From assembly GCF_001886815.1 (NCBI RefSeq), contig NZ_CP018099.1:682001-746000 (forward strand): DNA of 64,000 nucleotides, read 5' to 3'. A model generated the notes under the pieces. The model was not told where the DNA came from. It searched no databases and saw nothing but the letters and a program-made list of their open reading frames with translations. Shown here piece by piece: positions 14,783-18,646 of this stretch. A program made the translations under genes and the position numbers. The stretch comes from Caldithrix abyssi DSM 13497 (GTDB lineage Bacteria; Calditrichota; Calditrichia; Calditrichales; Calditrichaceae). How positions within the stretch are numbered: the first letter of the stretch is position 1; every line of letters starts with the position of its first letter.

Positions 14783-15817
14783 ATGAAATATTACAAGTAT
14801 TCGATCATCATTCCTTCTTATAATCGAGCGGATGAAATTAAAGAATTGTTGCAATCGCTGGCGGGCCTGGAATTCCCGCTGGAACGATTTGAAATCATCA
14901 TTGCCGACGACGGCTCTACGGATAATACGCCGCAAATTGTGGAGCAGGCCAGGCATCAATATCCCTTCGATTTAAAGTATTTCACGCAATCCAATCAGGG
15001 ACCCGGCGCAGCGCGCAACCTGGGAATGCAAAAGGCCGAGGGTGATTTTTTTATTTTTGTCGATTCAGACGTCACGGTTCCTGCCACATGGCTGGCGAAT
15101 ATCGATAAAGCTCTGCATCAGGAAAAAGCCGACGCCTTTGGCGGTCCCGACACCTATCGCAAAGATTTTCCCGCGTTACTCAAAGCCATTAATTATTCCA
15201 TGACATCCTTTCTGACCACCGGCGGCTTGCGCGGTAAAAAAGGAAAAAAGCTGGCTAAATTTTATCCGCGCTCTTTCAACATGGGCCTGAGCAGAGAGCT
15301 CTGGCAGAAAATCGGCGGATTTTCATCTCTGCGTCACGGTCAGGACATTGAGTTTAGCAACCGGATCATTAATTCGGGCGCCAGGGTCATTTTTGTGCAC
15401 GATGCGCCGGTTTATCATAAACGCAGAACCAGCTTACGTCGATTTTTCAAACAGGTGTTTAACTGGGGCGTGGCGCGCGTCAATCTGTACAAAATGGATC
15501 GACGCATGCTGGAATTGGTGCATGTGCTGCCGGCCATTGCTACGCTCATTGTGATTCTGATTGCCCTGCTGGCTGTATTCTGGCAACCAGCAAAAGTGGT
15601 TTTCCTCGCCGGATTGGCGCTGGGCGCTTTGTTATTGTTGATCTCCATGATCGACGCCGTTTTCATGTACAAAGAGCTAAAACCAGCCCTCTATTTGCCA
15701 GTTGTCATCCCTTTCCAGATTTTTGGCTACGGGCTGGGCTTTATCTACAATTTTATTCGTCGTGTCCTTTTGAAAAAGGGCGCGAAGGTTGGTTTTCAAA
15801 AAAATTATTACAAATAA
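14783..15817 (+). CDS. Family 2 glycosyltransferase, membrane-associated
   Basis: The 344-residue protein carries a GT-A domain with YSIIIPSYNRADEI, IIADDGSTDNTP, NQGPGAARNLGM and the metal-binding FVDSDV. A later HGQDIEFSNRI segment supplies the acid (ED) of the active site. Two or three membrane helices lie in the last 100 residues (about 235-300). It probably adds a sugar to a lipid-linked or surface glycan at the inner membrane. The gene starts 11 nt after the preceding glycosyltransferase, and a YfhO-like gene starts 12 nt after it. Donor and acceptor sugars are unknown. Confidence 0.9.
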   Translation: MKYYKYSIIIPSYNRADEIKELLQSLAGLEFPLERFEIIIADDGSTDNTPQIVEQARHQYPFDLKYFTQSNQGPGAARNLGMQKAEGDFFIFVDSDVTVPATWLANIDKALHQEKADAFGGPDTYRKDFPALLKAINYSMTSFLTTGGLRGKKGKKLAKFYPRSFNMGLSRELWQKIGGFSSLRHGQDIEFSNRIINSGARVIFVHDAPVYHKRRTSLRRFFKQVFNWGVARVNLYKMDRRMLELVHVLPAIATLIVILIALLAVFWQPAKVVFLAGLALGALLLLISMIDAVFMYKELKPALYLPVVIPFQIFGYGLGFIYNFIRRVLLKKGAKVGFQKNYYK

Positions 15818-15829
15818 AAGGGCTTTACC

Positions 15830-18327
15830 ATGGCTGCAAAAAAGCAAAAGAAGTCGCATCCTAAAAAACAGGCGCCAAAAAAAAAACGAGCGGATTTACA
15901 CTATCGCCCAGAACGCAGGATTACCTTGCGGTGGCCTTCCTCTTTTTCTTTTTGTTGATTTTACTTAAACCGCTGGCCATCGATCGTCTTTCACCGCAGG
16001 GGGTGGACGTCCTCGGTTCCATTGCAAAGATGCATTCGGTGCGTGAATACAAACAGCAAACGGGCGAGCAGGCCCTGTTTAATCCCAATTTATTTGCCGG
16101 CATGCCCATCTACCATCGCCTGAGTCCCAAAGCATTTTCGTTAGATAATTTGATTTCCAGAATGTCCAGGCTGCTGCACGCCGTGTTCTGGTACTATTTA
16201 CTGGGCGCGCTGGGCGGATTTTTGCTCTTCCGCTATCTTGGCATGTCGCCTTTAATTAGTTTGTTGGGGGGGCTGCTTTTTGTACTGTTTCCTCACTACA
16301 AATCGCTTTACACCGAAGGCCACATGGCCAAGTTAATGGCGCTGATGTATCTGCCCTGGGCCTTTTTAACCTTTCGTTATTTGCTGGATAAAAAAACATT
16401 GCTTTCCATGGCATTGTTTGCCCTGGCCTTTGGTTTGCAAATTCGTACACAACATTATCAGATCGTTTTTTACACGGGGCTGGCTGTTTTTGCGCTGGGC
16501 ATTTATCCTGTAATTAAAAACCTGCTGGATAAGGACTGGGCTTCGGCTGGCAAAACGGTGGGCTTGAGTCTTGTGGCGCTCATTCTGGCGGTGGCCATGG
16601 CCGCTCAGCCGCTGTTTTTAGCCAAAGAATATCTGCCCTATTCCAAACGCGGCAAAACCACCGTGGATGTCAAACAAACAGGCGCCCGGCAGGAGAAAAG
16701 TTCCGGCGTCTCTTTTGATTACGCCACACAGTGGTCCACGCATCCGTCGGAAATATTTACCTGGCTCCTGCCGCATTTTTACGGCGGTATGTCCGGCGAA
16801 CAGTACGATGGCAGCAAATTCCCGCAGCTTAAAAATCAACGCATCCCCGGCTACTGGGGACACATGCCCTTTACGCAAAGCTACGAGTACATGGGACTGA
16901 TTATTTTAATGCTGGCGGTAATCGGGCTGATCGCTAACTGGCGCGATGTCACCATTCGCAGCCTGTTTTTTCTTTTGCTGGTGCTGGTTTTACTCTCTTT
17001 CGGTCGCCATTTTGCGCTGTTTTACCATCTGTTTTTCGATTACTTTCCTTTTTTCAACAAATTTCGCGCGCCCATGATGAGCGTGACGGTGAGTTATTTT
17101 ATCATTGTGATTTTCGCCGTCTATGGCTTTAAATATCTGTTAGAATTAAGGCGCGACAAAGTGGACTGGAAACAACAGAAATTAATTTTGTACACCTTTG
17201 GCGCTTTTTTTGCTCTGGGCGCGATCTTCTGGTTGTACAGTCTGGGCGCCTCGTTTAGCAAAGTCGGCGAAACGTATCAGGGCCAGACCCTGGAAATCAT
17301 CAAACAGATCAGGCAGGAGTTGTTCCAGCGTGATTTGATCCGTTATTTTGTGCTCCTCATTCTTACGGGCGGCGCCTTATTTGCCTTTTTAAAGAACAAG
17401 CTATCGACCTGGGCTTTAATCTTAGTTTTAGGTCTGTTGCAAATCGGCGACTCTTTGCAGGTGCAGAGTCGGGTAAAACCCCAATATACCGATATTAAAC
17501 GGCTGGAACGCCAGCATTTTCGACCGACGGAAATCGATCGTTTCTTAAAGAGCGACAAAGACTTATTCCGTATTTTTCCGGCGGGTCAGCTTTTTAGCGA
17601 TAATCGCTGGGTCTATTTTCACCAATCCATCGGCGGTTACACGCCGATCAAAATGTACGCCATCGAAGAACTGGTCGAAAAAAATATCTACAACGGCTGG
17701 GATCGCAACTTGCCCATTAACTGGAATGTGTTAAAAATTCTGAACGTTAAATACGTTATTACCCAACAGCAATTACAGCATCCGTTTCTCCGGCTGGTGA
17801 AAAGCGATCCGGGGGCAAAACTGTACGTTTACTATTTTACCGGCTACCTGCCGCGCGCTTTTTTTGTGGGGCAGACGCAGGTGATCAAAGATGAGGTGCA
17901 GCGTCTGCACACCATCAACAGCCGCGAGTTTGAGCCGGCCACAACCGCCATTCTGGAAGAGGAATTAACCGAGCCCATTTCTCAACCGGACAGTAGTTTT
18001 ACAAAAGTACTTAAATTCACGCCCAACGAACTGCAATTGCAGGTTTACACGGATAAGCAGAGCCTGCTGGTCATTTCCGAAGTCTATTATCCGCCAGGCT
18101 GGAAAATTTTTATCGACAATCGGCCGGTGCAAAAAATTTACAAGACCGACCACGCCATTCAATCCATTGTGGTGCCGGCCGGCGAACACACGGTTGTGTT
18201 AAAGTTCGAGCCAGATTCTTATTTCAGGAACATCAAAATTTCCTACGCCTCGCTGGGCATTATCTATTTGATTTTGCTGGGCTCGCTGGCAGGCCATGTG
18301 CTCAGGCGAAAAAAGGGGAAAGTATAA
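15830..18327 (+). CDS. YfhO-family multispanning membrane protein, reading frame split at an A10 run
   Basis: The product resembles the YfhO/DUF6044-type polytopic proteins of GT-C glycosyltransferase type: about 12 membrane helices, an extracytoplasmic loop with QYDGSKFP, and a C-terminal beta-domain (VYYPPGWKIFIDNRPV). In Gram-positives YfhO glycosylates lipoteichoic acid; here a glycosyltransferase role is inferred. The best start is ATG 15830, after AAAGGG and 12 nt behind the previous gene. It encodes a Lys-rich cytoplasmic tail but runs into TGA at 15956. Re-reading one A in the A10 run at 15877-15886 joins it to the long frame, giving about 832 residues. GTG 15931 would start inside the first membrane helix. 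Confidence 0.8.
15877..15886 (+). other. A10 homopolymer at the frame junction of the YfhO-like gene
   Basis: Ten consecutive A residues join the Lys-rich N-terminal frame (starting at 15830) to the main membrane-protein frame, which is shifted by -1. Runs of nine or more A/T are known sites of RNA polymerase slippage, and A-AAA-AAA strings favour -1 ribosomal slippage. An added A in the mRNA, or a -1 slip, restores one continuous protein. A sequencing error or a phase-variable tract would look the same. Confidence 0.7.
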
Positions 18328-18329
18328 GA

Positions 18330-18579
18330 GTGTAAGAGTTGAAAAGTTAGATGGATGATCACTGGTCTGTCATTCCAAGTCCCGACTCATCGGGTTAGGA
18401 ATATCTGTCACCTCTGGATATGACCGCCCACGCCCAGCGTCCCCCTCTCCCAGACTTTTATTCTGGGAGAGGGGGATTGAGGGGGTGAGGGCTAGTGAAG
18501 GAAACGCCTTCCGCCGTTGGGAAGAGAAAAGTGTAAGAATTGAAGAGTTAGATGGATGATCACCGGTCTGTCATTGCGA
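18330..18579. repeat. Direct repeat pair flanking a GC-rich hairpin
   Basis: The gene-free interval 18328-18646 contains two copies of a 45-bp sequence beginning GTGTAAGA and ending GGTCTGTCATT (18330-18374 and 18531-18575, three mismatches), 201 bp apart. GTCATT followed by a G/C-rich tail is typical of dispersed intergenic repeats. Between the copies lies the perfect hairpin annotated separately. The unit looks like a partly duplicated dispersed element and not a gene. Confidence 0.8.
18441..18475. repeat. 14-bp perfect inverted repeat, hairpin core
   Basis: CCCCCTCTCCCAGA (18441-18454) pairs perfectly with TCTGGGAGAGGGGG (18462-18475) across a 7-nt loop. No T-run follows; the downstream sequence is ATTGAGGGGGTGAGG, so this is not a classical intrinsic terminator. 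The CCCCCTCTC/GAGAGGGGG core and the GGGGGTGAG tail recur in the element at 37421-37513, indicating a dispersed repeat family. Confidence 0.85.
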
Positions 18580-18646
18580 GGAAAGAGGAGCGGCCTGTGA
18601 CAAGCCGCTTGTTCAATATGTTTCAAAATGAGAAGTGAAATTTACC

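Follow-up and report, generated by a model that had tools for sequence, protein, structure and literature searches.

A private A10 run splitting a conserved membrane protein gene of Caldithrix abyssi: a candidate for decoding by transcriptional slippage

Introduction

A gene for a large membrane protein in Caldithrix abyssi is written in two overlapping reading frames, and it raises the question of whether, and by which route, the cell obtains a complete protein from it. The locus lies in the window, a stretch of 64,000 nucleotides that was analysed as a whole, within a genome consisting of one contig of 4,978,541 bases. A well-placed start codon opens a short frame, the body of the protein follows in another, and a run of ten adenines (A10) stands where the two meet. 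Such an arrangement may reflect a decoding event, a lost gene, or a miscounted run.

The A10 run and the two frames

The elements that define the problem are the following (coordinates refer to the window).

15818 to 15822, plus strand: AAGGG as read in the sequence, Shine-Dalgarno-like, 7 nt 5' of ATG 15830
15830 to 15958, plus strand: zero frame, ATG to TGA, 42 codons, reading MAAKKQKKSHPKKQAPKKKRADLHY...
15865 to 18327, plus strand: long -1 open frame of the membrane protein, 820 codons plus stop (18325-18327), opening after TAA 15862
15877 to 15886, plus strand: A10 run as read in the sequence, within the stretch shared by both frames, where the join must fall
15931 to 15933, plus strand: GTG, earliest candidate start of the long frame, at residue 23 and inside predicted helix 1

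A first-pass annotation had traced the short frame from ATG 15830 through a Lys-rich stretch to a TGA at 15956, and these coordinates hold. It had also assigned the membrane protein to the -1 frame without a good start of its own; a scan of the long frame agrees, finding no ATG, GTG or TTG upstream of GTG 15931. That GTG is itself a poor start according to the structural model, being placed within helix 1. The frames overlap by 94 nt, from TAA 15862 to TGA 15956, and the A10 is the sole long A run in this interval. Joining them across the run is a -1 shift, equal to one additional A in the transcript, and the zero-frame codons ahead of it encode the genuine Lys-rich tail with which the membrane protein begins.

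The A10 is the sole run of A9 or longer on either strand of the window. It accounts for two overlapping A9 matches, against 13.4 expected from shuffles, and the remaining A/T runs reach a length of 8 at most.

Conservation of the gene in relatives

The closest named relatives are mostly metagenome-assembled genomes (MAGs) of Calditrichota. Of 60 genomes searched, 46 contain the membrane body; the genome of C. abyssi has it as a single copy (one match). Start sites were surveyed wherever the DNA upstream was readable, in 38 relatives (27 and 11 loci from two sets), a sample that leaves out loci from the same contigs and loci lacking a 5' end. In all 38, start, N-tail and body lie in one frame, with ATG in 37 and GTG in one (L014), and a Lys-rich tail stands immediately 5' of helix 1 in nearly every case. 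Neither an A10 nor a split frame occurs in any of them; their longest A runs measure 5 to 9, and the one A9 is in frame. The closest relative (83% identity) reads MAAKKQKKPRPKKVEQKPSTGFSLSTRLQDYL, matching the two frames of the window in order. It shares the upstream glycosyltransferase neighbour and carries AAAGGG ahead of its ATG.

Since start, tail and body share one frame in 38 of 38 relatives, the comparison identifies ATG 15830 as the ancestral and true start, and the frame break as new and private to the C. abyssi genome. Both frames belong to one ancestral gene joined at the A10. The earlier placement of the join at the A10 is thus borne out, at or beside the run, by the single frame of the relatives. 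In one relative (L015, genome G019) the homologous gene is interrupted far downstream, by a TAA within the C-terminal part and away from any A run.

Selection on the gene was gauged against the closest relative, giving pN 0.109 and pS 0.707, the latter near saturation. A relative-rate count over 812 sites, with a 73% relative as outgroup, found 37 residues unique to the C. abyssi protein and 38 unique to its sister. These values indicate strong purifying selection on the body and no faster evolution on the C. abyssi branch. Because there is no acceleration, the gene is not decaying, and it is therefore expressed, or its break is very young, or the break is not real.

Predicted fold and genomic neighbourhood

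Three further features bear on the identity and topology of the protein.

14783 to 15817, plus strand: family-2 glycosyltransferase gene (Pfam Glycos_transf_2), ending 12 nt before ATG 15830
15907 to 15963, plus strand: predicted helix 1, model residues 15-33, beginning 8 residues before GTG 15931
16006 to 16008, plus strand: Asp48, unchanged across the alignment of 19 sequences, within the loop that follows helix 1

An AlphaFold2 model built from 19 sequences reached a mean pLDDT of 85, and its best Foldseek match was AftD (E 1.2e-5). Likeness to the GT-C glycosyltransferases (STT3/PglB, AftD, ArnT) resides in the shared predicted fold, with VIA-align Z scores of up to 19 (19.1 over 448 residues for STT3, 17.7 over 569 for AftD), and in a shared invariant Asp in the first loop; the gene here adjoins those of family-2 glycosyltransferases. 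The VIA-align comparisons were drawn from Foldseek's own candidates, and the absence of YfhO among the matches listed is not counter-evidence. Asp48 occupies the position after helix 1 where GT-C enzymes keep a catalytic Asp. With a fold match across most of the membrane domain and an invariant acidic residue in the predicted first external loop, a GT-C fold is predicted and offers a firmer description than 'YfhO-like'.

The latter label, used in the first-pass annotation, stands only at the margin. Pfam YfhO (PF09586) scored 28.9 in a six-frame search against a cut-off of 28.5, over the C-terminal part of the profile only. YfhO is not listed when the protein is run through hmmscan with E up to 1, and NCBIfam gives no hit for the membrane protein.

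Joining the frames had been expected to place a basic tail directly before helix 1, and both the N-termini of the relatives and the AlphaFold2 model concur. This tail, which only the joined frames supply, would keep the N-terminus cytoplasmic and Asp48 outside. Two family-2 glycosyltransferase genes and one DUF4292 gene lie upstream, and the gene probably serves an envelope glycan. On its 3' side are two 54-nt direct repeats, 89% alike (window 18326-18379 and 18527-18580), with a 26-nt inverted repeat, 81% complementary, between them (18429-18487). No further copy of the 54-nt repeats turned up in the genome when a 23-nt core was allowed as many as two mismatches.

Other frame breaks at long runs

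A survey of long runs across the genome covered all 25 A/T runs of at least 10 and 99 of 169 runs of nine, of which 123 had enough flank. It returned six frameshift candidates at runs of at least 9, and three stand on reading: the A10 of the window and two A9 runs (L106 and L093). Two others were dropped, as the run precedes a start codon (L055, L108), and one because its frame is of low complexity (L157). The idea that the A10 was the only broken long run was overturned by the larger sample and the reading of its candidates.

L106 (also L185; near C1:762246, minus strand) is a gene for a membrane SpoIIE-type phosphatase-like protein, a label that comes from reading the sequence rather than from a family search. 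It is broken at A9, the sister has A8, and relatives with a full-length match hold a single open frame of about 678-720 codons. At L093 (C1:144262), an A9 puts the start of an ATPase-like gene (motif GPRQCGKTT) out of frame, and the gene is truncated downstream. Many coding runs of 9 to 11, including a T11, a T10 and the A10 of dnaX, stay in frame. The list of such in-frame runs (29 rows) is lenient, as several rows fall at gene ends and it includes the A9 of L106, which is actually broken. Breaks at runs fit genuine indels tolerated through slippage and miscounts of run length alike, and their pattern does not separate the two.

A conserved A run in dnaX of Calditrichota

The dnaX gene of C. 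abyssi (L070, L115; C1:3893434-3894999) contains an in-frame A10 (LLKKKAS...) 331 codons past the Walker A motif, and adding or removing one A there brings up a stop only a few codons on. Sampling by the Walker A motif gave 30 dnaX loci from Calditrichota, of which 3 ending before or within the site were left out; four additional matches without a locus fall outside this sample. Of the 27 loci reaching the site (relatives' loci L116-L135), 19 have an A9 or A10 at the same codon. The eight loci without the run belong to families f3, f5 and f6, yet a genome of f6 (G031) has A9. Most run-bearing loci meet stops within about 10 codons in both alternative frames. In G006 (A10) and G019 (A9) the zero frame itself stops after the run, and about 155 codons become readable again with one added A. 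The Lys codons, three per locus, are AAA throughout in 19 of 19, for which the chance is about 4e-7 at a dnaX AAA share of 0.77, a value that ignores kinship and is only indicative.

These features make the A9/A10 of Calditrichota dnaX a likely programmed slippage site. In Thermus, slippage on the nine A's of dnaX yields about half short product, according to Baranov et al. (PMC1088944), and in other bacteria dnaX genes are described that have two frames and a run of 10 A's (GeneTack paper, PMC3711429). Like the A9 of Thermus thermophilus dnaX, the A10 of the yfhO-like gene codes for Lys in a thermophile, and the dnaX of the same genome fits that design with A10. In dnaX, however, slippage occurs at a conserved run and yields a shorter product, whereas the long product of the yfhO-like gene would require slippage at a private run. 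A literature search found no report on dnaX slippage in Calditrichota or on transcriptional slippage in Caldithrix. The dnaX pattern backs, without proving, productive slippage in the lineage, and the conserved dnaX run rather than the broken gene is the more interesting lead.

Slippage or a miscounted run

The reading we consider best, at just short of an even chance, is that a private A10 is decoded by RNA polymerase slippage, making the locus a 'pseudo-pseudogene'. The gene would be an ordinary, conserved one that starts at ATG 15830 and encodes a membrane glycosyltransferase of GT-C fold (YfhO-like); its Lys-rich tail would here be written in A-rich codons that make up an A10 lying one base out of frame. 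RNA polymerase would slip on the run, so that part of the mRNAs would carry A11 and direct full-length protein, with A10 mRNAs giving a useless 42-residue peptide. The gene would still work, as one of the 'pseudo pseudogenes' described by Baranov et al. (2005) and not as an evolved switch. We infer that the run on the chromosome really numbers ten A's, that the polymerase slips on it, and that the working protein comes from A11 mRNA. Because the same genome has a dnaX A10 of the Thermus type, transcript slippage that adds one A is credible, and by analogy it is plausible at the yfhO-like A10.

Known cases offer partial precedents. The name 'pseudo pseudogenes' was given to frame-broken genes rescued at A runs, as the 2005 paper (PMC1088944) describes them: a single indel at 9 or more A's, slippage restoring the frame, and a gene intact in relatives. 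Likewise, the break in C. abyssi falls at a run of at least nine A/T, the gene is otherwise intact, and its relatives hold it in one frame; it differs in that the run is A10 and in being known from the DNA of one strain alone. Rescue at A runs is also described for Blochmannia and Buchnera, where the share of full-length transcripts is quoted as about 30% (PMC3017870), and there too an otherwise intact gene is shifted at a long A run only. Those genomes, however, are very AT-rich and full of runs, whereas the present one has about 44-47% GC where sampled and long runs are rare in its genes. A second conserved gene broken at A9 with A8 in the sister (L106) is consistent with rescue by slippage; the lack of the site in every one of the 38 relatives weighs against it.

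Its close rival, which we hold to be a serious but somewhat less probable account, is that the chromosome has A11, or the culture a mixture of A10 and A11, and that the assembly wrote A10, leaving the gene simply in frame. Sequencing by 454 is prone to homopolymer miscounts. The complete genome published for C. abyssi LF13 (4.98 Mb) was a 454 and Illumina hybrid, as stated in its report (PMC5317091), which favours a miscount if it is the source of the present sequence; the same paper reports polishing with 81.5x Illumina, which argues the other way. Miscounts would also give breaks such as those at the A9 runs of L106 and L093, would explain a break found in no relative, and would suit purifying selection without acceleration, as expected of a gene never broken. 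According to the GeneTack paper (PMC3711429), homology-confirmed singletons are expected to be sequencing errors. Against this, the T11, the T10 and the dnaX A10 remain in frame in the same assembly. If the DNA does have A11, polymerase slippage would still yield mixed transcripts.

Other routes across the break

Decoding by the ribosome is improbable. A -1 shift on A_AAA_AAA would join the frames, and the zero-frame CCA AAA AAA AAA CGA does hold the slippery heptamer in the right phase. However, the downstream RNA gave z-scores of -0.38 to 0.23 against shuffles in four windows (a test that pseudoknots fall outside), reading finds no clear Shine-Dalgarno-like stimulator upstream, and the site is not conserved in relatives. 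The absence of stabilised RNA structure 3' of the run also tells against the suggestion in the first-pass annotation of a programmed slippage site that sets expression, as does the finding that a conserved programme in the yfhO-like gene, sought in the 38 relatives, appears in none. Equally improbable is separate initiation, whereby ribosomes that terminate at TGA 15956 begin anew at GTG 15931 (or TTG 15952/15955), or else ribosomes enter directly at the GTG, to give a 798-residue protein without the basic tail. The GTG sits 25 nt ahead of the TGA with AGGA 10 nt 5' of it, and the open reading frame is listed as beginning there. Yet predicted helix 1 already begins 8 residues ahead of it, every relative starts upstream, and the pre-GTG segment SGFTLSPRTQDYLA still matches STGFSLSTRLQDYLS of the relatives, though it would be untranslated.

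Phase variation, in which replication slippage would toggle the run between A10 (off) and A11 (on) within the population, is less probable still. It would suit a gene that probably acts on envelope glycans and carries a long mononucleotide run close to its 5' end, but run length and break are absent from 38 of 38 relatives, and the earlier proposal of a switch for a surface glycan goes unsupported, as neither recurs. We give the least credence of all to a recent true null mutation and a young pseudogene. The frame is broken as written; against this, the 820 codons are otherwise intact and under strong purifying selection, and what would have been lost is the single copy of a gene carried by 46 of the 60 genomes. 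Neither a conserved programme nor phase variation nor stimulated ribosomal frameshifting finds support.

Implications for Calditrichota

In practical terms, the start of the gene is to be placed at ATG 15830, and the locus annotated neither as a pseudogene nor with a start at GTG 15931. Frame breaks at such runs deserve treatment as possibly decoded. The conserved A9/A10 of dnaX hints that the polymerase of this phylum may slip productively on A runs. We entertain, as a rather unlikely extension, that slippage on long A runs is a normal decoding step in Calditrichota, with a widely kept A9/A10 slippage site in dnaX, and that broken genes such as the A10 glycosyltransferase and the A9 SpoIIE-type phosphatase are retained because slippage decodes them. 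If true, annotated pseudogenes of Calditrichota at runs of at least nine A's would often be expressed genes.
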